From positions 54,467 through 118,466 of the forward strand of contig JAJZTH010000009.1 in NCBI GenBank assembly GCA_021849075.1: DNA of 64,000 nucleotides, read 5' to 3'. A program made the translations under genes and the position numbers. The stretch comes from Pseudomonadota bacterium (lineage in GTDB: Bacteria > Pseudomonadota > Alphaproteobacteria > Sphingomonadales > Sphingomonadaceae). Shown one piece after another: positions 40,255-55,874 of this stretch (within the stretch, counting starts at the first letter, position 1; every line of letters begins with the position of its first letter). The notes below the pieces were generated by a model. It searched no databases. It worked only from the letters and a program-made list of their open reading frames with translations, and was not told the origin of the DNA.

Positions 40255-41235
40255 TTACTCCAGCCCACTTTTCTGCGCCTTCGCGACGAAGGCGAGCGCA
40301 GCCTGCGCGGTTTCGGCGATGGCGGCTTCGGCCTTCTTTGCGTCCACCGTCGGCCGGTCGATATAGATAGCCAATATATATTCGTCGCCCGCCGGCGATT
40401 TCACCAGCGCAACGTCATTATAGGCGTTGCCGCAGGTGCCGGTCTTGCTGCCGGAGGTCCAGCCTTCGGGCAGGCCCGCCTTGATGCGATGGTCGCCTGT
40501 GCTGCTGGCGTTGAACCAGGCGCGCAGCGTGTCGGCGCTCTGCCCTTTCATGTCGCGGAAGAACAGCCGCCCCATTAGCCCGGCCATGGCGGCAGGCGTC
40601 GTGGTGTCGCGTTCATCCCCTTCCGCATTTTCGTTGAGCTTTGGTTCGTTGCGATCTAGCCGGGTCACGCTGTCGCCATGCGCCCGCATGAAGGATGTCA
40701 GCCCTTCCGGCCCGCCCAGCATCGGCAGCAGCAGATTGGCGGCGCTGTTGTCGCTCACCTCCACCGCCGCGCGCGCCAGTTCGCCCATGCTCATCCGGCC
40801 GCGCTTCTTGTTCTTCTTCACCACCGGGGCGTAATCGAGGATATCGTCGCCGCTGAAGGGGATTTCGCCCTCCAGCCCGAACTTGCCCGCCTCCGCGCCG
40901 ATCAGCACCGCAGCGGCCAGCGGCGCCTTGAAGGTCGAACACATGGCAAAACGCTCGTCCCGGTTGAAGCCCAGGATCAGGGCGCCGTTGCGGTCCACCA
41001 GCGCGACGCCCAGCCGCCCGCCCGTTTCCTTTTCGATCTCGGCCGGATTGCGCACCTGCGCCAGCACCGATTGCGGCACCAGATAGCGCGGCGCGGCCGG
41101 CATCAGCGAATCGAGCCGCCCGGTCGGCACCGGCTCTTTGACCGGCGCTTTCTTCTTGTCGGCCGCAATTGACGGCGCAGCCAGCAGCGCCAGCGTTGCG
41201 AAGACAGACAGGGCCTTGGTGGTCAACTTCGTCAT
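40255..41235 (-). CDS. Class A serine beta-lactamase with carbapenemase-type disulfide Cys pair
   Basis: A 326-aa exported beta-lactamase. The signal peptide ends in SIAA-DK. All class A motifs are intact: CSTFK (Ser100, Lys103; Ser70/Lys73 in standard numbering), SDN (161-163), EPKLN (Glu197 = Glu166, Asn201 = Asn170) and KTG (264-266). Cys99 next to Ser70 and Cys268 in KTGTCG correspond to Cys69 and Cys238, and Thr267 to Thr237, the trio seen in KPC/SME/NMC-type carbapenemases. Substrate range is not provable by sequence. The ATG at 41235 (or 41247, overlapping the ferredoxin stop) is in the same direction as fdx. Confidence 0.93.
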   Translation of the reverse strand: MTKLTTKALSVFATLALLAAPSIAADKKKAPVKEPVPTGRLDSLMPAAPRYLVPQSVLAQVRNPAEIEKETGGRLGVALVDRNGALILGFNRDERFAMCSTFKAPLAAAVLIGAEAGKFGLEGEIPFSGDDILDYAPVVKKNKKRGRMSMGELARAAVEVSDNSAANLLLPMLGGPEGLTSFMRAHGDSVTRLDRNEPKLNENAEGDERDTTTPAAMAGLMGRLFFRDMKGQSADTLRAWFNASSTGDHRIKAGLPEGWTSGSKTGTCGNAYNDVALVKSPAGDEYILAIYIDRPTVDAKKAEAAIAETAQAALAFVAKAQKSGLE

Positions 41236-41243
41236 CGGATCAA

Positions 41244-41579
41244 TCACATGCCCTGCATATTATAGGCTTCGCTCGGGATACGGACGGTCAGTTGCTCCAG
41301 CTTGCCGTCCAGCACGATCTGGCAGGCGAGCCGGCTGGTCCGGGTGGCGGCGGCGGCGAGATCGAGCATGTCTTCCTCATCTTCGCTCGCGCGCGGCAGG
41401 CAGCCGAAATCGCCGGCGTCCACGATGACATGGCAGGTGGAGCAGGCCATCTGTCCTTCGCATGTCCCCTCCAGCGGCTGACCGGCGGCCTGCGCAATGT
41501 CCAGCAGCACTGATCCAGCCGGCGCGTCGACCTCCTGCCGCCGCTCGCCATCAGCGCTGATGAAGGTGACTTTGGTCAT
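41244..41579 (-). CDS. fdx: 2Fe-2S ferredoxin, adrenodoxin/Isc type
   Basis: A 111-aa ferredoxin that passes electrons, often to cysteine-desulfurase Fe-S assembly. Cluster ligands fit the CX5CX2C...C pattern: GTCEGQMACSTC and a later LACQ. The start ATG at 41579 (MTKVTFISADGER) fits the family. It follows two cysteine desulfurase genes at 19 bp, suggesting one operon for sulfur transfer. Confidence 0.92.
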   Translation of the reverse strand: MTKVTFISADGERRQEVDAPAGSVLLDIAQAAGQPLEGTCEGQMACSTCHVIVDAGDFGCLPRASEDEEDMLDLAAAATRTSRLACQIVLDGKLEQLTVRIPSEAYNMQGM

Positions 41580-41598: not shown

Positions 41599-42687
41599 TC
41601 ACGGCGCCGCTTGTGCGGCTGCCGCTTCCTGCAATGCTTCGGCTGCCCTCTCCATATCCTGCCGGTCCGTATAGCGGCCAAAGCCGATCCGCACCGATCC
41701 GCGCGCCTGCCCATCCGTCAAACCCAGCGCACGCAGTACATGGCTAGGCCGCCCGGACCCGCTTGCGCAAGCACTTCCCAACGAAAAAGCAACAGTGCGG
41801 CAATGGGACAACAGCCGCGCGCCGTCTATCCCCTCGCGCCGCAGGTTGAGATTGCCCGGATAACGGACAGTGCCGCTGCCATTGAGCGTCCAGTCAGCAA
41901 ACAGGGTGCGGGCCATCGCGGCAAGGCTTTCGACATGCGCGCGATCGGTCTCCGCCCGTTCGCGCATCAATCGGGCGGCGACGCCGAACCCGGCGCAGAG
42001 AGCCGGCGACAGCGTTCCAGACCTTAGTCCGCCTTCCTGCCCGCCGCCATGGATCAACGGCGCGGGCTTCACCCCGTCGCGCAGCCACAGCGCGCCGATT
42101 CCCTTGGGGCCGTGGATTTTGTGCGCGCTGATCGCCACCATGTCGCATTGCTGCGGGATCGGCACGCGGCCATAGCCCTGCACCGCATCGCACAGGAACA
42201 GCGCGCCGGCCTCATGCGCCAGCGCCGCCAGCGCCTCGACCGGTTGGATCACGCCGATTTCGTTATTCACCAGCATTGCGACAACGATAGAGACACCAGG
42301 AACGATCGCCTTCCGCGCCGCCTCCAGATCGACCAGACCGTCCGCCTCGACCGGCAATATGGTGACGGCACGCCCTGTCCTGCCCATCGCCTCCACCGTA
42401 TCCAGTACGGCCGCATGTTCGGTCGCGATGGTGACGATGCCACCTGCTGGCGCACCCTGAATGGCGATGTTCAGCGCCTCGGTCGCGCCGGAGGTGAACA
42501 GCGTCCTGCCTCCAGAAGGCAACAGCTTGCTTACTTCGTCCCGCGCCAGTTCCACCTGCGCGGCAGCGGCGCGGCCCAGACGGTGCGCGCTATGCGGATT
42601 GGCGAACTGATCGCGCAACAATGGGACCATCGCTTCAAAGGCTTCGGGCGCCAGCGGCGTCGTCGCCTGATAGTCGAGATAGATCAT
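41599..42687 (-). CDS. Cysteine desulfurase (NifS/IscS family), first paralogue
   Basis: A 362-aa PLP enzyme that releases sulfur from cysteine. The PLP lysine is in VAISAHKIHGPKGIGALWL, the persulfide Cys in GSACASGSGRPSHVLRALG, and the PLP-contact HxxxxxT is in TEHAAVLDTVEAMG. The start at 42687 (MIYLDYQATTPLAPE) overlaps the upstream paralogue's stop by 4 bp, so they are co-translated. Confidence 0.94.
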   Translation of the reverse strand: MIYLDYQATTPLAPEAFEAMVPLLRDQFANPHSAHRLGRAAAAQVELARDEVSKLLPSGGRTLFTSGATEALNIAIQGAPAGGIVTIATEHAAVLDTVEAMGRTGRAVTILPVEADGLVDLEAARKAIVPGVSIVVAMLVNNEIGVIQPVEALAALAHEAGALFLCDAVQGYGRVPIPQQCDMVAISAHKIHGPKGIGALWLRDGVKPAPLIHGGGQEGGLRSGTLSPALCAGFGVAARLMRERAETDRAHVESLAAMARTLFADWTLNGSGTVRYPGNLNLRREGIDGARLLSHCRTVAFSLGSACASGSGRPSHVLRALGLTDGQARGSVRIGFGRYTDRQDMERAAEALQEAAAAQAAP

Positions 42688-43745
42688 GGCCGCGCCTTTT
42701 CTGCCATGGCGGTCCACACCGACAGAAACCTGTCTACATCGTTGTCGCAGGTCTGAGGACCAAAGCTAACCCGCACCACCTGCGCCGCCGCATCATCATC
42801 CCACCCCATCGCGCCCAGCACATGGCTGGTCTTGAGCGAGCCTGACGAACAGGCGCTGCCCGCCGACACCGATATGCCTTTAAGGTCGAACTGGATCAGC
42901 TGCGCACGGGCGGATAGACCCGGCATGCGATAGCTGGCGATGACGGGCAGGCGCGGCGCATCGCGCGCAACGATGATGCCGCCGGCCGCCTCTATCCCTG
43001 CATCCAGACGCGCGCGCATCTCCGCTGCCCGGCCCAACCAGTCCTCCCGCGCCTCCAGCGCGGCGGCCATGGAGAGGATGGCGGGCAGATTTTCGGTGCC
43101 GGCGCGATAGCCCTGTTCCTGTCCGCCGCTCGGTTCGATCAGCGCCAGATCGCGAAGCAACAGTGCGCCGATGCCGGGCGGACCACCGAATTTATGCGCG
43201 CTGATCGCGATCATGTCCGCATCGGGCAGCACCAGCTTCCCCGCGCTCTGGGCGCAGTCGGCAAACAGGATCGCGCCGTTGCGGTCCATCCGGTCGAGCG
43301 GCTGGATCACGCCGGTTTCATTGTTCACATGCTGGATGGCGAGTATGACGTCATCCCAGCGCAGGCTGGAATCTCGCGAACCTTGAACAATGCCATCCCC
43401 ATCCACCGCCAGCCGGTCAGCGCCCTTCGTCACCCGCAGCACCGCGTCATGCTCCACCGGCGATGTGACGATCCGCCCCGCCTTGGCCCGGGTGAGGCCG
43501 ATGGCGATCGCCTCGCTCGCGCCGGAGGTGAAAATGACATGCCCGTCCCAGCCCAGCGCCGCCGCGATGCGCCTGCGCGCATCCTCCAGCGTGGCGCGGG
43601 CGGCGCGGCCATCGGCATGGGGGCTGGAGGGGTTGGCCCAGCCGGCCATCGCCCCCACCATTGCCGCCTGTGCGGCGGACGACATCGGGGTGGTTGCGGC
43701 ATGATCCAGATAAAGACGGTCGGCGGCCAAGCGGGTGTTACTCAT
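42684..43745 (-). CDS. Cysteine desulfurase (NifS/IscS family), second paralogue
   Basis: A 353-aa paralogue of the downstream gene. The persulfide Cys is in GSACSSGSLKTSHVLGAMG and the PLP lysine in ISAHKFGGPPGIGALLL; DHAATTPMSSAAQAAM is the N-terminal marker. Two neighbouring desulfurases plus a ferredoxin resemble alphaproteobacterial Fe-S (Suf/Isc) clusters, but sufBCD are not in the window. Confidence 0.93.
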   Translation of the reverse strand: MSNTRLAADRLYLDHAATTPMSSAAQAAMVGAMAGWANPSSPHADGRAARATLEDARRRIAAALGWDGHVIFTSGASEAIAIGLTRAKAGRIVTSPVEHDAVLRVTKGADRLAVDGDGIVQGSRDSSLRWDDVILAIQHVNNETGVIQPLDRMDRNGAILFADCAQSAGKLVLPDADMIAISAHKFGGPPGIGALLLRDLALIEPSGGQEQGYRAGTENLPAILSMAAALEAREDWLGRAAEMRARLDAGIEAAGGIIVARDAPRLPVIASYRMPGLSARAQLIQFDLKGISVSAGSACSSGSLKTSHVLGAMGWDDDAAAQVVRVSFGPQTCDNDVDRFLSVWTAMAEKARP

Positions 43746-43883
43746 TGATTGCGGAAATGGCGGCGACTTCTATATAGGCGGTCTGCCGCGCAGCGCCAGC
43801 GTGAAGCCCCTGTGCCTAGCGTCGGCGCGCGCATCGATCCTATCCCCGCCGCATTCCCGCGGCCCAGAACGATAACAGGTGCC

Positions 43884-44540
43884 ATGCCCGACGTCATTTT
43901 CACCGGACCCGAAGGCCGCCTCGAAGGCCGCTTCAGCCCCCCGCCCCGCCCGCGTGCGCCGGTCGCCATGATCCTGCACCCGCATCCGCAGGGCGGCGGC
44001 ACGATGAACGACCGCATCACCCAGGCGATGTACAAGACCTTCGTGAAGCGCGGCTTTGCCGTTCTGCGCTTCAATTTCCGGGGCGTCGGCCGCAGCCAGG
44101 GCACGTTCGACAATGGCATTGGCGAACTCTCTGATGCCGCAGCGGCGCTTGACTGGGTGCAGAGCTTCCACCCCGAGGCCCAGACCACCTGGATCGCCGG
44201 CTTCTCCTTCGGCGCATGGATCGGCATGCAGTTGCTGATGCGCCGCCCGGAAATCCGCGGCTTCATCTCGGTTGCGCCGCCCGCGAACATGTATGATTTC
44301 TCGTTCCTGGCCCCCTGCCCCTCTTCGGGCATCATCGTGCAGGGCACGTCGGACGAAGTGGTGACGGCCAGCGCCGTGCAGAAGCTTGTCGACAAGCTGC
44401 GCACGCAGAAGGGCATCACCATCCATCATGACGAGATCAAGGGTGCAAACCACTTCTTCGAGCATGAACTCGACCAACTGATGAAGTCGGTCGACAATTA
44501 TCTCGACATGCGCCTGTCGCCGGATTCGCCGATCCGCTGA
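43884..44540 (+). CDS. Alpha/beta hydrolase (COG2945-like)
   Basis: A 218-aa hydrolase. The nucleophile elbow is GFSFGAW (Ser), Asp lies in GTSDEVV and the His in GANHFF. HPHPQGGGTMNDRITQAMY is the conserved oxyanion region of this compact family. Substrate unknown. The ATG at 43884 is chosen because the family start matches it; upstream codons do not. It is divergent from the desulfurase operon. Confidence 0.92.
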   Translation: MPDVIFTGPEGRLEGRFSPPPRPRAPVAMILHPHPQGGGTMNDRITQAMYKTFVKRGFAVLRFNFRGVGRSQGTFDNGIGELSDAAAALDWVQSFHPEAQTTWIAGFSFGAWIGMQLLMRRPEIRGFISVAPPANMYDFSFLAPCPSSGIIVQGTSDEVVTASAVQKLVDKLRTQKGITIHHDEIKGANHFFEHELDQLMKSVDNYLDMRLSPDSPIR

Positions 44541-44563
44541 TCGCTGGTTGCAATGGAAGAAGG

Positions 44564-44591
44564 GGCTGCCTGAAAAGGCGGCCCTTTTTTG
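44564..44591 (+). terminator. Rho-independent terminator of the hydrolase gene
   Basis: A 9-bp stem (44564-44572 with 44577-44585, one G-T pair) has a GAAA loop and six following T's. Confidence 0.9.
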
Positions 44592-44595
44592 TCCG

Positions 44596-45975
44596 TCAGT
44601 CAGATACCGGCAGCGACAATATGAAGCGCGCGCCCTCGCCCGGCGCGCCGCCGATGACGATGTCGCCGCCCATGGCGCGGGCCAACCGCCGCGAGATATA
44701 GAGGCCAAGGCCGCTGCCCCCGGCATCGTCCCGGCCCAGTCGCTCGAACTTTTCGAAAATGCGTTCGCGATCCGCCGGATCGACGCCGCCGCCCTGATCG
44801 ATCACGGCGATGCGCGCCTGTCCGCTTTCCCATTCGGTGGCGATCCGCACTTCGCTGCCTTCGGGCGAATAGCGGACCGCATTGCCCACCAGATTGACCA
44901 GAATCTGAAGCACCCGGCGAAATTCGCCGGTCGCCATCAGCACAGATTCGGGTGGCGGCGCAACGATGCCGATCCGCCGGTCAAGCGCCTTGACCGACAA
45001 CAGCCCCGCCGTCCGCCGGCCCAGATCGGCCAAGTCGACCGGCTCGGCCACGACGCTGAAATCCGGTCGGTCGATCGCCTGAAGATCCGCCAGATCATCG
45101 ACCAGCGCCATCAGGTGCCGGCCCGCCGCCGCAATATCGCTGGCATAGCCGGCATAATCGGCGCGCAACGGCCCTTCTAACTGCGCGCTGATCGTGTCGG
45201 CATTGGCGATTATCCGGCCGAGCGGCTGGCGCAGCGATCGGTCCAGCCGCTTGCCAAATTCGGCGGGATAGAGCGTCAGCGGCGGTTCCTGCGCCATCGG
45301 CGCCATGACCGCGCGCACCATGGGAAAGGCGGTGCCGCGATAGCCCTTCAACTGCCCCGCCTGATCGAACATGGGAAAGGCCGACAGGCTGAAGCGACTG
45401 GCGGCATCCTTCGCCAGCACCGCCTGCTGATCGCGAAAGGCGCGGCGCAGGGCAAAGCCGCGCAGCATCGCCATGTCGCCATCGGCATCGGCCTGAAGCT
45501 GAAAATAGCTGGAAAATCGGCTGCCTGGCACAGGCGGCTCCGGCGGCAGCGCGCCATCCTGCCCCGCCCCCTCCAGCACCATTTCGAACCGCAATTGCGT
45601 GTCGATCTGCCAGGTCCATCCTTCTGACAGAGCGGCAATATCGGCGTCGCGCTGGCCATTGTCGGCCGGCATGGACAGTGGCGGCCGTTCGCGCCAGTCG
45701 ACCACGGACAGGCTGACGCCGTTCGCGTCGGGCCTGGCGCGCACCCACATGTCGATGTCGCCGCGCTCGGCCGCCGCGACCACCGGACGCGACAAAGTGA
45801 TGTTGAGCCGCGCCGCCAGCCGCGCGATGGCGGCCAGTTGCGGCACGGCGATCACCATGCCCAGATCCGCCCCCGCTTCCCGCTGCAACGCCAGCAATGG
45901 CGCGTCCGCGCTCAGCAGCCGGCCGTCGGCTGCCAGCGTGGCGCGGACCACAGCGGGGTGGGCAGGACTGTTCAT
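44596..45975 (-). CDS. Histidine-kinase-like protein with altered H-box (pseudo-kinase candidate)
   Basis: A 459-aa protein. Two PAS-like regions (~1-110 and ~115-225) precede a HisKA-type dimerisation helix pair (240-300) and a HATPase domain. The H-box, normally HELRTPL, reads RSLRQPL, so the phosphorylated His is Arg246. The ATP-binding N-box (NLVGNAVRY, Asn365), G1 (DQGGGVD), F-box (FEKFERL) and G2 (SGLGLYI) are intact. There is no membrane segment, so it is cytoplasmic. It may bind ATP but cannot autophosphorylate at the usual residue; DivL of Caulobacter is a precedent of altered H-box kinases. Its start overlaps the DUF2336-like gene by 4 bp. Confidence 0.87.
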   Translation of the reverse strand: MNSPAHPAVVRATLAADGRLLSADAPLLALQREAGADLGMVIAVPQLAAIARLAARLNITLSRPVVAAAERGDIDMWVRARPDANGVSLSVVDWRERPPLSMPADNGQRDADIAALSEGWTWQIDTQLRFEMVLEGAGQDGALPPEPPVPGSRFSSYFQLQADADGDMAMLRGFALRRAFRDQQAVLAKDAASRFSLSAFPMFDQAGQLKGYRGTAFPMVRAVMAPMAQEPPLTLYPAEFGKRLDRSLRQPLGRIIANADTISAQLEGPLRADYAGYASDIAAAGRHLMALVDDLADLQAIDRPDFSVVAEPVDLADLGRRTAGLLSVKALDRRIGIVAPPPESVLMATGEFRRVLQILVNLVGNAVRYSPEGSEVRIATEWESGQARIAVIDQGGGVDPADRERIFEKFERLGRDDAGGSGLGLYISRRLARAMGGDIVIGGAPGEGARFILSLPVSD

Positions 45976-47057
45976 GCCGGGCAGACCGCGCGCAGATGAT
46001 CCAGCTTCGCGCGGAAGGCCGCCGGCGTGCGCAACGCCCCGATCGCCAGATCGACGTCCCCGTCGCTCAGTTCGTGATAGCGTTCGGCCTCGGCAACGAT
46101 CGCGATGTCGGACAAAGCGGGCCGCACCGGCCGCAGCGCGATCAGCAGATGGCGATAGTCGCTATCCGATCCCCCCAGCGCCCGGCACAGCAATGCGACA
46201 TCGGACAAAGGCCCCAACACCAGCATGTCCGTCACCTGCACGCTGTCCAGCCGCAGCCGACGCGCCGCCAGCGCCGTGAACAACAGGAACCGCCGCTGGT
46301 CCAGCGCTGCGCCGACCAGCTCCAGCGAATCGGCGCGATCGCCCATCCGCCGCACCAGCCGGTCTGCCTGCGCAATCGGCCCGGCCGCTTCGTCATGATC
46401 GGTCAGCAACGCCCAGCCCGATCGTTCGAACGCGCCCAGCAAAGCGTCGCCAGCATCGGGCATGGTGCGCTGCGCCACTGCCGCGAGACAGGCGGCCACC
46501 GTCCATACCAGTTCGGCATAATGTTCGGCCGGCAGATCGGGCCGCATCGGCCGATCTTCCCCGCCCAGCATCAGCCAGCGTCCTTCCGCCAGCGCCAGCG
46601 CCGACACCGCTTCGCCCAGATCCGGATCGTCGGCGCTCGGCAGACCGCCATCCGCCTCGCCCGGCCGCTCCAGATCCGCCTCGCCAAATTGCCGCAACAT
46701 CAGCGTGACGCCCGCACGCATCTGCATATGCGCCAGTAACCCCGGCCCCAACAGGGTCGGCTGCGCCCGCACCGTGGGCCAGACCAGAGGTTCGGGCCAG
46801 CGATCGAGCGCAGCGGCAATGTCGGGCGCATGATCGAACGACAGGCGCATCGCCATTTCCACCGCGGCGATGCATCCGCCCAGATGCCGCCGCGTTTCCG
46901 CAATCAGCGCATCGTGCCGCGCTGAAGCATTATCGGGAAAGAAAAAGGCCAGATCGATCGCGTGGGCAACAGGCACGACGGACATGCCCGCCATGACCCG
47001 CGCCATTGGCCAGCTGCCCGCCATGGCCGTGCCGGTGAAGGACGAAAGGGCGCTCAT
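45972..47057 (-). CDS. DUF2336-like helical-repeat protein (361 aa)
   Basis: An Ala/Leu-rich helical protein with no signal or membrane segment. The layout (RHDALIAETRRHLGG, LPAEHYAELVWTVAACL, DQRRFLLFTALAARRLRLDSVQV, then short helical repeats) matches DUF2336 proteins I know from sphingomonads, whose function is unknown. Identity with DUF2336 is a judgement from pattern. Its stop overlaps the kinase-like start by 4 bp, giving translational coupling. The start could be 47057 or 47069. Confidence 0.68.
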   Translation of the reverse strand: MSALSSFTGTAMAGSWPMARVMAGMSVVPVAHAIDLAFFFPDNASARHDALIAETRRHLGGCIAAVEMAMRLSFDHAPDIAAALDRWPEPLVWPTVRAQPTLLGPGLLAHMQMRAGVTLMLRQFGEADLERPGEADGGLPSADDPDLGEAVSALALAEGRWLMLGGEDRPMRPDLPAEHYAELVWTVAACLAAVAQRTMPDAGDALLGAFERSGWALLTDHDEAAGPIAQADRLVRRMGDRADSLELVGAALDQRRFLLFTALAARRLRLDSVQVTDMLVLGPLSDVALLCRALGGSDSDYRHLLIALRPVRPALSDIAIVAEAERYHELSDGDVDLAIGALRTPAAFRAKLDHLRAVCPA

Positions 47058-47147
47058 GCAATGCAGCATAAATGCACGTCGTTAAAATGCACTAAACCCT
47101 GATCGCGAAAAAACGGCGCCCGAAACAAATTTCGAACGGGCGATCCG

Positions 47148-48314
47148 TCAGTCCGGCTTACGCAGGATTATGGCTCCGACCGAGGCGATCGCCGCCGCCA
47201 TCGCCACATCATATCCGCTTTCCGCTACACCGATCAGGCCGGCGATCAACAACAGGATCAGCGCCGTGCCCGGCGTGGCGATCATCCATGGCCGGGCCGC
47301 GCCCGTCCGCCGCCAGCGATCCGCGACCAAAATCACCGCCAGCAACAACGCCAGATAGGCGGCGATCGCACTTGCCCCCGCCAGCGCCATGCCGATCAGG
47401 GCGAAGCCCGGCGTCACGAAGGCCACCCACCCCAATGGCGGCGGCCGCAACGCCAGTTCGTCCAGCCGATCGGCCGTTTCCGCCAGCAACAGCGCCCCGA
47501 TCAGAACGCCAAAGCCCGTCAGCATCCATTGCAGTTCGATCGGCACCAGCGCGATCGCGCCCAGCGCCATGGCGGCGATGCGCACCTGCACCGCAGGCAC
47601 CTGCAGCCGCATGAGCGCCGGGCCGATCCGGCGCGCCAGCGGCGCCAGCAGATAATGCTCGATCCCGCCGCGACCGCGCACCGACGAAGCGCCGGCCGCC
47701 GTCACCGCCTGCGCAACCAGATCGGCCTGCTCCTGGTTTTCCACCAGCGCGACGCGCCCTTCCAACAGGTCATCCTGTGGCACGGTGACGCGGCGAGCGC
47801 CCTTCTGCACCGCCGCCCGCACCAGCGTCAGCGCCAGATCCCAGTCGCCGATCATGTCCAGCGTGCCGAACAGCAGGTCGGGGCCGACCCGCGCCAGCCC
47901 GGCCCAGCGCTGCCCGGCGTCGATCCGCTCCAGCGGGCCGCTCGCCCGGCTGTCGTCCGCCACCAGCAGCGCATTGCCCTCGCCAGCGCCGATATTGTCG
48001 AAATGCGCCTGCGCCACGACCGCGCCGTCCGCCACCAGCAGAACGTCGCTGTCCCGGGGCGCATCGCGCACCATCGACACCATGTCCCGCACCAGCGCGA
48101 CCACAATGCCGTCGGCGCTTAGCCGATCGACGGCCTGCGACAGGGCGGGCGTGATAACGCTGACCAATATGAGAATGCGATCCGCGCCGGCCTGAACCGC
48201 CTGACGCGCCTGATATTCGACCAGTGTCTGCCCGGCGAAATGCAGGCTCGCCCGCAGGCCGGACGGCGAATCGGCCGATGGCCTGCTGGCGCTGAGAATT
48301 GCGGCGAAACTCAT
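47148..48314 (-). CDS. Membrane protein resembling a degenerate nucleotidyltransferase/CDP-alcohol transferase
   Basis: A 388-aa protein. The N-terminal ~210 residues look like a sugar/inositol-phosphate nucleotidyltransferase fold (FAGQTLVEYQARQAVQAGADRILILVS) but lack the AAGxGxR loop. The C-terminal half (PLARRIGPALMRLQVPAVQVRI then six hydrophobic helices) is laid out like a CDP-alcohol phosphatidyltransferase, but the DGxxAR...GxxxD motif is reduced to ETADRLDELAL. The enzyme activity is therefore doubtful. The start at 48314 (MSFAAILSASR) is used. It lies between the DUF2336-like and Hpt-like genes. Confidence 0.65.
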   Translation of the reverse strand: MSFAAILSASRPSADSPSGLRASLHFAGQTLVEYQARQAVQAGADRILILVSVITPALSQAVDRLSADGIVVALVRDMVSMVRDAPRDSDVLLVADGAVVAQAHFDNIGAGEGNALLVADDSRASGPLERIDAGQRWAGLARVGPDLLFGTLDMIGDWDLALTLVRAAVQKGARRVTVPQDDLLEGRVALVENQEQADLVAQAVTAAGASSVRGRGGIEHYLLAPLARRIGPALMRLQVPAVQVRIAAMALGAIALVPIELQWMLTGFGVLIGALLLAETADRLDELALRPPPLGWVAFVTPGFALIGMALAGASAIAAYLALLLAVILVADRWRRTGAARPWMIATPGTALILLLIAGLIGVAESGYDVAMAAAIASVGAIILRKPD

Positions 48315-48405
48315 GTCGTTACGCTTGTGACCCGATTGTTGTACGGGCGACCTTTTCGCAAGGCGGACGGCTTCGCGCAAGCAGCGCCGGCCCCGTCAGT
48401 GCGAA

Positions 48406-48708
48406 TCAATCCTGACGCAGGCTTTCCAGTACAGCGCGCAATTGCCGCACGATGCGCGGATCGCCCGGGGCCGACTGCGCCGCTTCGTCCGCCATCGCCA
48501 TCAATGCCGTCAGGCCGAAACTGGCCGCCAGCCCCTTCAGCCGCCAGGCGGCCAATTCCCAATTGGCGTCGCACCGCGCCCGGCTGAGCAGGTCGACATG
48601 GTGCGTGGCGCTTTCCATGAAGGCGATGCGCAGATCGGCGATCAGCGCCTGATCTTCGCCAACGGCTGCCGCCAGGGCAGCGTGAAGGGCGCCGGAATCA
48701 TAAGACAT
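48406..48708 (-). CDS. Hpt-like protein lacking the phosphorylated histidine
   Basis: A 100-aa all-helical protein. The Hpt signature AHxLKG aligns with AAWRLKGLAASFGL, so Trp55 replaces the His that accepts phosphate; Lys58 and Gly59 are kept. The segment MESATHHVDLLSRA before it and MADEAAQSAPGDP after it fit an Hpt four-helix bundle. It cannot relay phosphate in the usual way but may still bind partner proteins. It is divergent from the 892-aa coiled-coil gene (80 bp apart). Confidence 0.75.
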   Translation of the reverse strand: MSYDSGALHAALAAAVGEDQALIADLRIAFMESATHHVDLLSRARCDANWELAAWRLKGLAASFGLTALMAMADEAAQSAPGDPRIVRQLRAVLESLRQD

Positions 48709-48788
48709 GGCGACGGACGCTATCTGGCGTGCGTTAAGTTTTGGTAACAGGGCATTTGCGCGGACGGAAAAACTGCTAGGATGCGGGC

Positions 48789-51467
48789 ATGACAGGGGGC
48801 AGCAGCACAATCGTCGAATTTTGGCGAGACGAACCGGGCGCGACCGTGAACGAGTCGCAGGCGGATGATATTTTACTTTTGAAACAGGCTGTTCTGGAAA
48901 TCGACGATCAGGATGATCCGGCCAATGGCGCCGGCGAAACGATGGTGCGGCGCGTGCGCATCGGCCTGTCGCTGCTGGGCGTGGCGTGGACCGGCTTCGC
49001 CATCTGGGCGATGGTCGCATCGGGCGACCTGCTGGCCGGGCCTTCCGCCTGGGCCAGCGCGGTCGCCACGCTGACCGCGCCGCTCATTTTGCTGGCGCTC
49101 GCCTATCTGCTGCTGGTGCGCAACAGCCGCACCGAATCGCGCCGCTATCTCGACACCGCCCGCGCGCTGCGCACCGAAGCCGATCTGCTGGAACTGCGCC
49201 TTGGCCGCATCAGCGCCCAGCTGGAAAATGCGCGGCAGACGATGCAGGACAAGGCCGAGCTGCTCGACAGCTATGGCGCGGCCGCCAGCAGCAATATGGA
49301 GGCGTCCGCCGAACTGATCGCCGCGCGCGCCCAGTCCACCACCGAACGGGCCGAAATCGCGGAGCGCGCCGGCATGGCGCTGGTCCAGCGGATGGAAACG
49401 CTGATCGGCTCCATTCCCGAACTGGAGGAACGCGCCGGCCGCATGAGCGCGCGCATCATGGACGATGGCCATGCGCTGGCCGAACGGATCGACATGCTGG
49501 AGGCGCGTCTGCACGCGCTCACCGAACTGTCCGATGAAGCGCGCGCGCGCACCCTGGCCGCGACCAAGAGCCTGTCGAGCCAGTTGACCCAGCTGCAGGA
49601 AAGCACCCGCGCCGCCACGCAGGAAGTCACCGGCATGGCCGACATCGCGTCGGGCCGGATCGAGGCCACGGCGCAGGGCGCGCGACAGGCGATGGACCGC
49701 AGCCGACAGGATATGGAGGCCCATGCCGTCGCGCTGACGACCGCGATTGAAGCCGCCCAGGCCGGTGTCGCCAGCACCAGCGATCAGGTGCGCGCCACGC
49801 TGGCTGACGATCTCGATGCGATCGGCGGCGCGCTGCGTGGTCGGATCGACAGCCTCCTGCATGCGGTACGTGACAGCTTCGCCACCACCGATCAGGGTCT
49901 GTCCCGCCGCGCGGAAGCGCTCGAAACGCTGCTGGCCGGCGCGCAAAAGGGCATTGATGCAACCAGCCAGAGCGCCATTACGGCCCTGTCGCGCGACATG
50001 GAAGCGATCGACAGCGATCTGCGCCGCCGCCTGGAGGCGGCACTGGATCGGGCGCAGGAAAATCTTGCCATCACCAGCGGCGGCCTCGCCACCCAGGCCG
50101 ACGCGCTTGACGCGCTGATCGCCCGGTCGCGCGAAAGCCTGGACGCGATCGGCAGCGAAACGGTCGCCAGCCTCAGCGACATGATCGGCGACATTGAAAA
50201 TCGCCTGCATCAGCTCGACACCATGGTCGAGGGTCAGCGCAGTCTGATGTCCGGCCTGCATGCCGGCCTGAATGATACGATTGCCTCGACGGAAGGTCGC
50301 TTCGCCGCCCTGGAGGACAATGCGCTCGCCCGCAGTGAACGATTGACCGCAGCCCTTGCCCGCATGACGGAGGAAACGCAGCGGATCGACAGCGCGCTCA
50401 CGGCCGGCGGATTGACCGCCGAAAGACTGATCGGTGCCGCCGAGACGCTGATGGTCGCGCTCGACTCCAGCGTGCGCGAACTGGACGAAACCTATCCCGG
50501 CGCGCTGACCCGTTTCGATAACCGGATGGAGCAGAGCCGCGCCCTGCTGGGCAGCACGACGCCCGAAATGGAGCGGCTGGAGGCGATTTCCGAAGCGCTG
50601 GTCGGCCGGGCCGAAGAGGCCGAATCGCTGCTGCGCGGCCAAGGCAGCCGTCTGACCGAGTGGCTGGAAAGCACGCAGGGCGGCCTTACCGCCAATCGCG
50701 AACTCGTCGATCGGCTGCGCACGGCGCTGGACGCCGCCGATCAGGATGCCCGCCGCATTACCGAAGGCGCAGGGCCGCTGCTGGTCACTGCTCTATTGCG
50801 CGTCAAGGACACGGCCGATCAGGCGGCGGAACGCGCGCGACAGGCGCTGGGCCGCGCCATTCCAGAAGCAGCTCAGCAACTGGCGCAGGCCAGCGACGCC
50901 GCGCTGGAGGGCGTGATTGGCGAGAAGGTGACGGCGCAGATCGAACAGGTCGCCCGCGTCGCCGAAGAAGCGGTCAAGGCCGCCCATCAGGCGTCCGAGC
51001 GGCTGACCCGCCAATTGCTGACCATCGCCGACACCAGCGCCACGGTCGAACAGCGCATCGTCGAAGCGCAGCAGGCGTCGGAAGATCGTGATCGGGACCA
51101 TTTCGCCCGCCGTTCCGCTCTGTTGATCGACTCGCTCAACAGTACGGCGATCGATGTCGCGAAAATCCTGTCCAACGATGTGACCGATTCGGCATGGTCG
51201 GCCTATCTGAAAGGCGACCGGGGCGTGTTCACCCGCCGCGCGGTGAAATTGCTGGATGCCGGCGAGTCGCGGGAAATTGCGCTTCATTATGACAATGACG
51301 CCGACTTCCGCGATCATGTGAACCGCTATATCCATGATTTTGAAGCGATGTTGCGGATCATCCTGTCGGCGCGCGACGGCAATGCTCTGGGCGTCGCCAT
51401 TCTCTCGTCCGACATGGGCAAGCTCTATGTCGCGTTGGCCCAGGCGATTGAACGACTGCGGCAATGA
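48789..51467 (+). CDS. 892-aa membrane coiled-coil protein with internal repeats
   Basis: The first ~50 residues are cytoplasmic and acidic, then two hydrophobic helices (~55-75 and ~85-108) form a membrane hairpin. From ~115 to ~780 the protein is almost entirely coiled-coil. Three imperfect repeats of ~62 residues are at about 327-390, 391-452 and 452-500 (pattern ...LSRRAEALETLLAGAQKGID / ...LATQADALDALIARSRESLD). The C-terminal ~115 residues are a separate compact domain (ILSNDVTDSAWSAYLKGDRGVF; SSDMGKLYVALAQAIERL), similar in shape to the ends of large 'kinesin-like' coiled-coil proteins of Rhizobiales. The function is unknown; a scaffold or polarity role is a guess. Confidence 0.8.
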   Translation: MTGGSSTIVEFWRDEPGATVNESQADDILLLKQAVLEIDDQDDPANGAGETMVRRVRIGLSLLGVAWTGFAIWAMVASGDLLAGPSAWASAVATLTAPLILLALAYLLLVRNSRTESRRYLDTARALRTEADLLELRLGRISAQLENARQTMQDKAELLDSYGAAASSNMEASAELIAARAQSTTERAEIAERAGMALVQRMETLIGSIPELEERAGRMSARIMDDGHALAERIDMLEARLHALTELSDEARARTLAATKSLSSQLTQLQESTRAATQEVTGMADIASGRIEATAQGARQAMDRSRQDMEAHAVALTTAIEAAQAGVASTSDQVRATLADDLDAIGGALRGRIDSLLHAVRDSFATTDQGLSRRAEALETLLAGAQKGIDATSQSAITALSRDMEAIDSDLRRRLEAALDRAQENLAITSGGLATQADALDALIARSRESLDAIGSETVASLSDMIGDIENRLHQLDTMVEGQRSLMSGLHAGLNDTIASTEGRFAALEDNALARSERLTAALARMTEETQRIDSALTAGGLTAERLIGAAETLMVALDSSVRELDETYPGALTRFDNRMEQSRALLGSTTPEMERLEAISEALVGRAEEAESLLRGQGSRLTEWLESTQGGLTANRELVDRLRTALDAADQDARRITEGAGPLLVTALLRVKDTADQAAERARQALGRAIPEAAQQLAQASDAALEGVIGEKVTAQIEQVARVAEEAVKAAHQASERLTRQLLTIADTSATVEQRIVEAQQASEDRDRDHFARRSALLIDSLNSTAIDVAKILSNDVTDSAWSAYLKGDRGVFTRRAVKLLDAGESREIALHYDNDADFRDHVNRYIHDFEAMLRIILSARDGNALGVAILSSDMGKLYVALAQAIERLRQ

Positions 51468-51515
51468 GGCGCTGACGAGCCAATGATGCCGGGCCGGCGA
51501 CATGCCGGCAAACGC

Positions 51516-51544
51516 TTGACTAATCCCGATGTGTTTCCTATGCG
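51516..51544 (+). promoter_or_regulatory. lexA promoter
   Basis: The -35 box is TTGACT (51516-51521), followed by a 17-bp spacer and -10 box TATGCG (51539-51544). It lies 31 bp before the lexA start and directly abuts the SOS box. Confidence 0.75.
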
Positions 51545-51558
51545 TTCCTCATACGTTC
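51544..51558 (+). promoter_or_regulatory. SOS box (LexA operator)
   Basis: GTTC (51544-51547), 7 bp, GTTC (51555-51558) is the exact alphaproteobacterial LexA consensus. It overlaps the -10 edge and start region of lexA transcription, so LexA represses its own gene. Confidence 0.93.
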
Positions 51559-51575
51559 CACGGAGGACCGCAGCG

Positions 51576-52262
51576 ATGTTGACGCCCAAGCAGCAGGAAT
51601 TGCTGAGCTTCATTCAGACCCGACTGGAAGAGGGCGGCGTATCGCCCTCGTTCGAGGAAATGAAGGACGCGCTCGACCTGCGCTCCAAATCGGGCATTCA
51701 TCGCCTGATCAACGCGCTGGAGGAGCGCGGCTTCATCCGCCGCCTGCCCAACCGCGCCCGTGCGCTCGAAGTTCTCAAGCTGCCCGACGCCATGCACCGT
51801 GCGCCCGCGCCCGTCATCGCGCCCCAGCCCAAGGTCGTCTCGCCGGTTCAGCCGCCCATGCTGCCGACCGCCGCCAATGACGTGATCGAAATTCCGCTGC
51901 ATGGCCGCATCGCGGCCGGCGTGCCGATCGAGGCGATGGAGGGGCACGCCATGCTCTCCGTGCCCGCTGCCTTGCTGGGCGCGGGCGATCATTATGCGCT
52001 GGAAGTGTCGGGCGATTCGATGATGGAGGCCGGCATCCTCGACGGCGACTTCGCCCTCATTCAGCGCACCGAAACTGCGCGCGAAGGCCAGATCGTCGTC
52101 GCGCTGATCGACGAGGCGGAAGCCACGCTCAAATATTTCCGCCGCGAAGGCGCGAAGGTTCGGCTCGATCCGGCCAATGCCGCCTATGAACCGCAAATCT
52201 ATGATCCGCGTCAGGTACGCATTCAGGGCAAGCTGGCCGGGCTGCTGCGCCGCTATAATTAA
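51576..52262 (+). CDS. lexA: SOS repressor LexA
   Basis: A 228-aa repressor that cleaves itself when RecA is active. The N-terminal winged HTH includes [32 protein letters not shown]. The cleavage site Ala-Gly is in [11 protein letters not shown], the catalytic Ser in [11 protein letters not shown] and the Lys in [11 protein letters not shown]. The ATG at 51576 ([10 protein letters not shown]) is the family start; a longer frame upstream includes the promoter and is not coding. Its end overlaps the convergent comEC gene by 4 bp. Confidence 0.97.
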
Positions 52263-54403
52263 GGTATGCGAGACGGGCGGCGCGCGATCCAGGGATGCGC
52301 GTCGCCTGGCCTGAAGACGGTGTGAACTTCGCCCTTTTCCAGAGTGATGGACAGGCCGCCGGTGCGTGACAGCAGCCGGCGGTCGATCTTCATCCAGCGC
52401 GGTCGGCACCAGCGGGGCAGCCCGCGGTCGCTGACCACGATGTCGGCCGCCGCGCAATCGCGCGCAAAGTCGCGCCGCGCGATCAGCACATCGCTGCGCG
52501 TAAATAGCAATCGCCAGTTGCGTCCTGCCCGGTCCTTCAAACGCACGGCGCACAGATCGGTTGAGCAGCGCGCTTCCGGCAAATCGGCGATCGCCGTCAA
52601 TTCCCCGTCATAACCGGCGCTTTCCGACAGGACATCGCGCACATACTCCCCCGCCCGGTCGCGCAATATGGCCATGCCCCTGTCCGTGCGCACCGCCACA
52701 TGCCGCCCGTCGCCAGTGATCAGCAAGTCGGGCGGTGGCGCAAGCAGCGTCAACGCCACGCCCGTCACCACCGGCGCCAGCCCCCACCATCGCACCCGCG
52801 TCCGCCACAGCAGGCACCACAGCAGCCCCGCCGCCGTGACGCTGAACACGCCCACACTCATTGTCGGCGCGAGCAGCGTCGCCATCGGGCTGGCTGCCAC
52901 GCCATGGGCAAGTCCCAGCAACAGGTTGAGCGCCTGCGCCGTCAGCCACCAGCAGGGCGCGCCCAGCCCAATGATATCCAGCAACAACGCCAACGCCTCC
53001 AGCGGCATGACGATGAAGGTCGTCAGCGGGATCGCGATCAGATTGGCGAATGCGCCCAGCAATCCCGCCTTGTGAAAATGGAACAGCGCAATCGGCATTA
53101 GCACCAGTTCGACCGCAACGCCGGTCGCCAGCATGACCGCCAGCATCCTCCCGCCCTTGCGAATCGCCCCTTCCTCGCGCGCCGCGGCAAAGGCGCGGAA
53201 ACGGGGATGCTCGGCCAGCGCCACCAGCGCCGTCACGGCGGCAAAGCTCATCTGAAAACTCGGCCCGGCGAGCGCTTCGGGCCACAACAGCAACACCACC
53301 AGCGCGCCCGTTGCCACCAGCCGCAGCGTTACCGCGTCCCGCCCCATCGCCAGACCTCCCAGCACCAGCAACGCCGCGACGCAGGACCGCACCGTCGGCA
53401 CCTCCGCCCCTGTCAGCAATGTGTAACCAATGCCGGCCAGCGCCCCGCCCGCCGCTGCAATCAGCATCAACGGCCAGTCGAGCGCCGCCCGCTGGCTGAG
53501 CGCCATCAGCCGCATCAGCAGGAAGATGACCGCCCCGATCAAGGCCGTGACATGCAACCCGCTGATCGACAGAAGATGCGCCAGCCCGCTGCGCCGCATC
53601 GCCTCCGCATCATTTTCCGGGATCGCCCCCTGATCGCCGGTCGCCAGCGCCGCCGCAATACCTTCGGCCGGCCCATCGAACCGTTCCATGATATGGCTGA
53701 ACAATCGCGCCCGCAGCGATGGCCCGGCGGTGGACGGTCGAAGCATATCGATCGGTTTCAGCGCCTTGCCGGTCGCGCCGATCCCCTGAAAATAGGCGCG
53801 CGCAGCAAAATCATAACCGCCCGGCACGCTTGGCGGCGCCGGCGGCATCAGCCGCACCCGAAACCGGATGCGCGCCCCCTCCCCCAATCCCGCAGGCAGA
53901 TCGGCATCGGCGATGTTCACCCGAACCACGCCAGGCAGAGCCAGCGCCTCGACCGGCCGCAACATCACACGCACCATCTTCTGCGCCGGCACTGGCCGCA
54001 CGCCAATGACGTCGCCCGTCAATTGAATGAAGGTCGCTCGCGCCAGCGGCGGCTGCCCCAGCAGCGCGGCCTTCCCCCACACCAGCAGACAGCCCAAGCA
54101 AAGCAATATTGCGCCCGTGACAATCATGTGTCGCACCCGCCCACCGACAGGCAGCATCGCCCCGGCACAGGCCAAGCCAAGCGCCACGCAGCAAAAGGCC
54201 AGCCAGGCCATGGCATGCGGCAGCAAGAACCATCCGGAGATCCCGCCGCCCAGCGCAACCGGCGCCCACAGCCAGATCTGTTCCCGCTCGCATTCCAGCC
54301 AGCTTTCAACCGCTTCCATCCCCGTCTGGAACAACAGCGCCCCCCTTGCACCAAGGGAGGTTTGTCGTGGCTCAAAAGCCGTGCTAGGGGGCGGCGCATC
54401 CAT
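52259..54403 (-). CDS. comEC: ComEC/Rec2-type DNA uptake channel protein
   Basis: A 714-aa inner-membrane protein. It has an N-terminal ComEC DUF4131 domain, the Competence core with several transmembrane helices ([21 protein letters not shown], the hallmark, and [22 protein letters not shown]) and a C-terminal lactamase-like domain that lacks the metal-binding HxHxD. It would carry single-stranded DNA into the cytoplasm; whether this strain is competent is unknown. It converges with lexA and is divergent from gltX. Confidence 0.93.
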
Positions 54404-54419
54404 GGGTCAGCAAAGGCGA

Positions 54420-55874
54420 ATGTCAGAGAATATGACGGCAAGTGCAACGGGAATGAACAAGCAGGTGGTGACCCGTTTCGCCCCGTCCCCCACGGGGTTC
54501 CTCCACATTGGCGGCGCCCGCACGGCGCTCTTCAACTGGCTTTATGCCCGCCACCATGGCGGCAAGTTCCTGCTTCGCGTCGAGGATACCGATCGCGCCC
54601 GCTCCACTGAGGAAGCCGTGGCGGCTATCTTCGACGGCCTGGAATGGCTGGGTCTGGGCGGCGACGAGCCGGCGGTGTTCCAGTTCGAACGCACTCCGCG
54701 CCACGCCGAAGTCGCCAACCAGCTTCTGGAAGCCGGTCACGCCTATCGCTGCTATGCGACGCCCGAAGAACTGGCCGAACTGCGTGAGCAGCAGCGCGCC
54801 GCCAAGCAGCCGATGCGCTATGACGGCCGCTGGCGCGACCGTTCACCCGAAGAAGCGCCCGAAGGCGCCCCCTTCGTCATCCGCATCAAGGCGCCGCGCG
54901 ACGGCGAAACCGTGATCGAGGATGCGGTGCAAGGCCGCGTGGTCGTGCAGAATGCCGAACTGGACGACATGATCCTGCTCCGGTCCGATGGCACGCCTAC
55001 CTATATGCTGGCGGTTGTGGTCGACGATCATGACATGGGCGTCACCCATGTCATCCGTGGCGACGATCATCTCAACAACGCCTTCCGTCAGCTTAGCATC
55101 ATTAAAGCGATGGGCTGGGAAGAACCGACCTACGCCCATATCCCGCTGATCCACGGATCGGATGGCGCGAAATTGTCCAAGCGCCATGGCGCGCTGGGCG
55201 TCGACGCCTATCGTGACGAGATGGGGATGCTGCCCGAAGCGGTGCTGAACTATCTGCTGCGTCTGGGCTGGGGCCATGGCGATGAGGAGTTCATCCCGCT
55301 GGCGCGCGCGATCGAACTGTTCGACATCAGCGGCGTGGGGCGCTCCCCGTCCCGTTTCGATATCAAGAAGCTGGAAAATCTGAACGGCCATTATCTGCGT
55401 GAAGCCGACGACTCGCGACTGGCCGAACTGGTCGCGCCGCGTATCGCGCAGCGGCTTGGAAAAGTTTTTCCTGAAAACGGACTTGGCATTTTGACCCAGG
55501 CGATGGCGTCGCTGAAGCCGCGCGCCAAAACCCTTAACGAAATTGCCGAGGGCGCCGAATTTTTGTTCAAAAATTGCCCGCTCGATTTTGACGAGAAGGC
55601 ATCCGCTCTGCTAGACGACTCCGCGCGCGCGCTGCTGATCAAGACAGCCGACGTTCTCCAGCCCGTTCAGTCCTGGACGGTAGAAGCGATCGAAGACGTT
55701 ATACGCCGCGTGGCAGAGGATGCGGGCCTGGGCCTTGGCAAGGTGGCGCAACCGCTGCGTGCGGCGCTCACCGGCCGAACGACCTCGCCGGGCATTTTTG
55801 ACGTCCTCTTCCTGCTTGGGAAAGAGGCGAGCTTGGAACGACTGACCGCTGCAGGGCACGCAACGGCCGGTTGA
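54420..55874 (+). CDS. gltX: Glutamate-tRNA ligase
   Basis: A 484-aa class I synthetase. The HIGH motif is in [21 protein letters not shown], and KMSKS appears as [12 protein letters not shown]. The tRNA-binding C-terminal domain is full length. Starts at 54420, 54432 and 54453 are in frame; the 54420 ATG has AAAGG close upstream. Alphaproteobacteria often carry two GltX enzymes, one of which can also charge tRNA-Gln; this cannot be decided here. gltA follows 20 bp later. Confidence 0.96.

Follow-up and report, generated by a model that had tools for sequence, protein, structure and literature searches.

A conserved sphingomonad gene cluster in which a kinase-like and an Hpt-like protein, encoded beside a candidate polar scaffold, lack their acceptor histidines

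Among the closest described counterparts of the locus considered here are two polar proteins and a pseudo-kinase. In the passages cited, TipN and GPR are presented as polar proteins that are anchored in the membrane and contain long coiled or helical stretches (PMC4460556, PMC8262873, PMC7327166). TipN is stated to be 882 amino acids (aa) long (PMC13170164), and distant homologues of RgsE are reported from Emcibacterales and Rhodospirillales (PMC7327166). The pseudo-kinase DivL, as described in the part of the source cited, has no kinase activity, binds DivK~P, and binds ATP weakly (PMC4211667). The present locus occupies positions 44596-51467 of a 64,000-nucleotide stretch of DNA (the window, whose positions are used throughout) that is closest to Sphingobium: residues 560-892 of the scaffold protein are 99% identical to a Sphingobium rhizovicinum protein, the top one among the matches listed. 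The genes form a conserved scaffold operon whose histidine kinase-like and histidine phosphotransfer (Hpt)-like proteins have lost their acceptor His, while the kinase has kept its ATP site. We suggest, with a probability of about 0.5, that the products form a polar switch based on binding and not a phosphorelay.

An earlier note on this DNA had described five neighbouring genes, four on the minus strand and one divergent, and all five open reading frames (ORFs) are present as claimed. In the order of transcription, the minus strand encodes the 100-aa Hpt-like protein, a 388-aa membrane protein that is transferase-like, a DUF2336-like protein, and the 459-aa kinase-like protein. The note had proposed translational coupling for at least two of the genes; the start of the kinase gene and the stop of the DUF2336 gene share an ATGA overlap. 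The note was also right about the key residues: Arg246 in the kinase and Trp55 in the Hpt stand at the His positions, and a CDP-alcohol motif is missing from the transferase-like protein.

The pseudo-histidine kinase (44596-45975, minus strand) matches HATPase_c at E 6e-26, with intact ATP-site motifs, and HisKA weakly; a hydrophobic segment was looked for in it and none was found. The phospho-acceptor His of the H-box is replaced by Arg246 (DRSLRQPL). Among 95 aligned kinase rows, which include one identical protein twice (L117 and L293; labels of this kind, with L or G, are our own for loci and genomes), this position is Arg in 27, Pro in 26, His in 18, Ala in five, Glu in four, Gln and Lys in three each, Thr and Asp in two each, and Leu, Asn, Gly, Ser, and Val in one each. 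The His is thus absent from 77 of the 95, and the rest of the H-box is altered too, with Pro in many rows. Seven ATP-site residues, in the N, G1, and G2 motifs, do not vary in any of the 66 rows compared.

The pseudo-Hpt (48406-48708, minus strand) was listed as an ORF of 204 aa, which its likely start reduces to 100 aa. Its likeness to the Hpt phosphotransfer domain is that of a profile match: E 3e-5 against PF01627, with 24.6 bits, exactly the cut-off, and E 3e-9 when an alignment-based profile is compared with the solved histidine phosphotransferase 2ooc. The difference is that the phospho-acceptor His is replaced, here by Trp55 (AWRLKG). A single-sequence fold model was too poor (pLDDT 60) and was not used. 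The acceptor position, in the 54 family rows that have a letter there (one extra row is gapped), is Trp in 30, Leu in 11, Met in eight, Phe, Tyr, and Ala in one each, and His in two, so that the His is replaced in 52. Conservation of Arg246 and Trp55, which the earlier note had proposed to test, did not hold up in the alignments: the kinase position may be Arg, Pro, Ala, Glu, Gln, Lys, or others, and the Hpt position is mostly Trp, Leu, Met, Phe, or Tyr. Because both acceptor positions vary, neither Arg246 nor Trp55 is a fixed functional residue. The Hpt site is nonetheless almost always occupied by a large hydrophobic side chain, which would be suited to docking if the face is exposed.

The DUF2336-like protein (45972-47069, minus strand; its real start is perhaps further inside) matches PF10098 at E 2e-7, with 31.2 bits, slightly below the 34.6-bit cut-off. 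Of 30 aligned members, 28 match PF10098 at E <= 0.01, the best of them at 3.6e-72, and the gene is the sole PF10098 match found in the genome of the window. Comparison with solved structures gave only weak matches to repeat proteins (E 0.02 or worse), and the open-licence literature searched yielded no papers on DUF2336, either alone or with a histidine kinase. Elsewhere in the class, DUF2336 and a kinase-like frame occur together over a short distance in 10 of the 30 loci read, four of these being weak; the link between DUF2336 and the kinase is looser across the class than within the order.

The transferase-like gene (47148-48314, minus strand), with a probable start at 48314 that gives 388 aa, received no name from Pfam and NCBIfam searches with the single protein. 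An alignment profile and a fold model place it as a degenerate IPCT-DIPPS-like protein, a nucleotidyltransferase-like domain together with a membrane domain. This two-domain fold is common to the bifunctional membrane enzyme IPCT-DIPPS (4mnd) and the CDP-alcohol phosphotransferase AF2299; the CDP-alcohol motif of those enzymes is not present in the window protein. Among 47 of its relatives the motif is nearly complete in one, and PF01066 matches one of the 47. Two genera have, next to the degenerate gene, another gene for a CDP-alcohol phosphotransferase in which the motif is complete (L117, 7872-8717; L128, 8234-9442).

The scaffold (48789-51467, plus strand) is an 892-aa membrane-anchored coiled-coil protein with two N-terminal hydrophobic segments (58-78 and 86-113, from a hydropathy scan only) ahead of a long helical part, and with an apolipoprotein-like PF01442 signal below the cut-off. 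In these three traits it is like TipN of Caulobacter and GPR/RgsE of Agrobacterium and Sinorhizobium, and the published descriptions of those proteins, so far as cited, resemble it (PMC4460556, PMC8262873, PMC7327166, PMC13170164). It ends in a conserved C-terminal domain, common to the likely TipN and very long GPR-like proteins, for which 58 of the 142 class genomes sampled gave a match; the frames with strong matches reach about 2,400 aa. The domain profile matches one place in C. vibrioides DSM 9893, a 900-aa frame of 882 aa from its first Met (genome E 6.6e-9). This match covers only residues 806-878 (33 bits; E 0.001 by one-against-one BLASTP). We take this protein to be probably TipN, because of its length of 882 aa and the short C-terminal match. 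No match named TipN was among the best 120 in each scaffold protein search. The two also differ: the window scaffold, known here from sequence, has a divergent Hpt operon, and next to the Caulobacter gene, whose neighbour presumably resembles CysD, an Hpt is not seen. Hpt genes with an intact His do diverge from the scaffold gene in distant class members, in a Rhizomicrobium-like genome (L194, 6986-7375) and next to a scaffold frame of 1,985 aa (L196, 3772-4308), which indicates that the Hpt-scaffold pair is old. The suggestion that the coiled-coil protein organises the group could therefore be right, since the protein is placed with polar scaffolds.

The scaffold is matched in 31 of 31 genomes searched, that of the window included, and the transferase-like gene in 20 of them, 19 of the genus and one by a weak match. 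Across the family the transferase-like gene is matched in 111 of 149 genomes and 78 of 96 genera. Eighteen congeneric and 60 family loci were fetched, the 60 being picked from those 111 genomes and hence conditioned on that gene; three loci were not counted (L061, the remaining piece of G016; L292, the locus of the window itself; L325, a weaker second match in G025). The complete five-gene set, in the same order and orientation, is present in 17/18 congeneric and 28/60 family loci. The congeneric exception is G003, where the DUF2336 gene has been cleanly lost from between its neighbours (L053, 12019-12054). The expectation that the order is kept across species thus stands for 17 of the 18 congeneric loci and for these 28; in the other 32 one or more parts were not found or the contig ended. 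The five-gene set is not obligatory. When 15 further family genomes were searched (12 without a transferase-like match and three with a second Hpt, described below), the kinase was found in 12 and a DUF2336 gene adjoined it in 12/12. Median ratios of nonsynonymous to synonymous substitution (dN/dS, NG86; 97-117 congeneric pairs with dS below 1.5) are 0.16 for the Hpt, 0.19 for the kinase, 0.24 for DUF2336, 0.23 for the transferase-like gene, and 0.20 for the scaffold. These low values in all five genes indicate purifying selection and no decay. In most congeners gltX and comEC are found on the kinase side; in the window they are on the scaffold side, as is lexA (41599-55874), so the block has stayed intact through a local rearrangement of its flanks. 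No description of the five-gene cluster was found in the open-licence literature searched; together with the loci and the dN/dS values, this bears out the claim of an undescribed conserved grouping with catalytic residues missing.

The histidines are present in relatives. In 12/12 genomes of outer families the H-box of the nearest kinase is intact. A DUF2336 gene adjoins this kinase in ten, the other two loci being cut. Four basal genera of the same family also have the kinase His, with DUF2336 next to the kinase in every locus that extends far enough. Of 12 outer scaffold loci, three of them cut by contig ends, eight have a REC protein as well as a second Hpt in the vicinity; the first Hpt is recognised by profile in six, with the His in 6/6. 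In the basal loci read, the Hpt still has its His, and REC and a second Hpt are nearby. A second Hpt is found in 4/99 family genomes and adjoins the transferase-like gene in three of these (G037, G082, G086). All four have the kinase His, and the three first-Hpt proteins read from second-Hpt genomes have theirs, one of them in a poorly reading frame (L327). A small conserved protein (GGKLPLFD...) lies between scaffold and Hpt in six outer-family loci (L032-L036, L039; e.g., 7032-7451 of L036) and not far from the scaffold in two loci of the class; at a guess, it might be a winged helix.

In the kinase tree a single branch with 100/100 support parts 16 His kinases (12 outer, four basal) from the 79 other rows, although the bootstrap is not fully settled and the G020 row sits on a very long branch; two of the 79, with a His outside the usual motif, nest inside that group. 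Beyond this branch the kinase His is gone; in the family genomes sampled there, a second Hpt is mostly missing and the Hpt His has given way to a large hydrophobic residue. A quick DUF2336 tree from a 45-row subsample separates a scaffold-side type, near the scaffold in 8/12 outer loci and in G082, from a kinase-side type; the DUF2336 of this family falls outside the scaffold-side type. The DUF2336-kinase and Hpt-scaffold pairs are apart in the outer families and together in this one. The loci and trees indicate that a His-bearing DUF2336-kinase pair and a His-bearing relay beside the scaffold predate the present cluster. The earlier note had named His-bearing homologues in close relatives as evidence against a module; such homologues do exist, in part of the family and outside it, but they show the origin of the module and do not abolish it. 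The note's overall interpretation is partly supported, and a joint function of the five proteins is an inference.

Since the acceptor histidines are lost but the ATP site is kept, the module likely acts by binding and not by passing phosphate. The scaffold would mark the pole or the division site, as TipN and GPR do, and so localise the complex. The pseudo-kinase may change shape on binding ATP, its ATP state serving as a gate, with DUF2336 as a possible adaptor. The pseudo-Hpt would dock via its former phospho-face, now with the large hydrophobic residue, and the IPCT-DIPPS-like protein would tie the complex to the membrane and might sense a nucleotide or CDP-lipid without turnover. A broader version, which we put forward tentatively, as possible rather than probable, is that a phosphorelay at a pole scaffold was converted early in sphingomonad evolution to a phosphate-free, ATP-gated binding machine, the kinase, the Hpt, and the lipid-nucleotide enzyme losing their chemistry together and most of the family keeping one polar complex. 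The novelty lies in the before-and-after series and in the tie to a scaffold of the TipN/GPR type. Pseudo-kinases like DivL have been known as single cases, and here a kinase and its linked Hpt have both lost their histidines, in the part of the family where a second Hpt is hardly found, with His-bearing versions persisting in basal genera. The series might show how a relay becomes a binding switch and, if true, how a signalling chain turns into a structural one. Sphingomonads would gain a candidate polarity system of the TipN/GPR type, and DUF2336 would be tied to kinases and a likely polar scaffold.

Several observations weigh against a binding switch of this kind. Besides the 32 family loci in which at least one part is not found or a contig end is reached, ten family genomes with incomplete loci were searched whole; the DUF2336-kinase pair lies elsewhere in three, and seven of ten without the kinase gene at the locus gave no match genome-wide at E <= 1e-55. 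Two family rows (L097, L116) have the Hpt His, yet no second Hpt was found at the locus, and two kinase rows (L123, L130) have a His outside the usual motif. The REC protein was sought beside the loci only. The TipN identity of the C. vibrioides protein is drawn from length and a short C-terminal match, and the interaction, polar localisation, and ATP binding of the module proteins are predictions. The weak ATP binding described for DivL in the part of the source cited (PMC4211667) speaks against a simple analogy. DivL is the nearest precedent but a poor ATP binder, so ATP gating is a proposal drawn from residue conservation.

Other explanations bear on the same evidence. The invariance of the seven ATP-site residues, stricter than a purely structural role needs, might mean that the kinase is still active in trans on DUF2336, the scaffold, or an unlinked partner, only the local acceptor having been lost. 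The results are compatible with an unlinked acceptor; we nevertheless consider this unlikely, given that the linked Hpt has lost its His as well, that a second Hpt is so rare in the family, and that the remaining H-box has changed, often to Pro. It is very improbable that the pseudo-kinase represents DivL in sphingomonads and acts on the CckA-ChpT-CtrA pathway. Both have kept HATPase_c and lost the acceptor His, both are predicted to act by binding, and the DivL structure 4q20 is among the PDB matches, but other kinases outscore it there. DivL has Tyr at the site, and the pseudo-kinase, in its cluster with DUF2336 and the scaffold and with its invariant ATP-site residues, does not. The identity was rejected on two grounds: the genome of the window has a separate 801-aa kinase frame with the Tyr (MSYELRTPL, L301), and no Tyr occurs in any non-His pseudo-kinase row.

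It is also conceivable, if rather doubtful, that the genes are neighbours without joint function, two independently useful divergent units held by a convenient divergent promoter and an operon. The incomplete family loci and the three genomes with the DUF2336-kinase pair elsewhere would fit this, as would a terminator-like hairpin between the transferase-like and DUF2336 genes, in a count of such sites that is near chance (8 vs 5.0 expected, sd 2.1). The block nevertheless recurs across many genera despite gltX and comEC switching sides among congeners, and two pairs that are separate in outer families are united in this one, both of which speak against mere proximity.

The 80-bp divergent region between the pseudo-Hpt and scaffold genes (48709-48788) contains TTAAGTTTTGGTAAC at 48734-48748. 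Its TTAA-N6-GTAA form is found in 17/18 congeners and in 20/53 loci overall, and a looser GTTAA...GGTTT form is visible in other genera; it is possibly the binding site of a regulator. CtrA sites have the pattern TTAA-N7-TTAA. No match to it, with one mismatch allowed, was found in the divergent region, and no CtrA claim is therefore made. Promoter-like sites occur at chance (1 vs 0.9 expected), and terminator-like sites are weak.

Outside the cluster, an ORF at 40255-41247 encodes what we take to resemble a class A beta-lactamase (STFK, SDN, and KTG motifs). Two adjacent, overlapping genes at 41599-43745 are cysteine-desulfurase-like, and the second matches PF00266.

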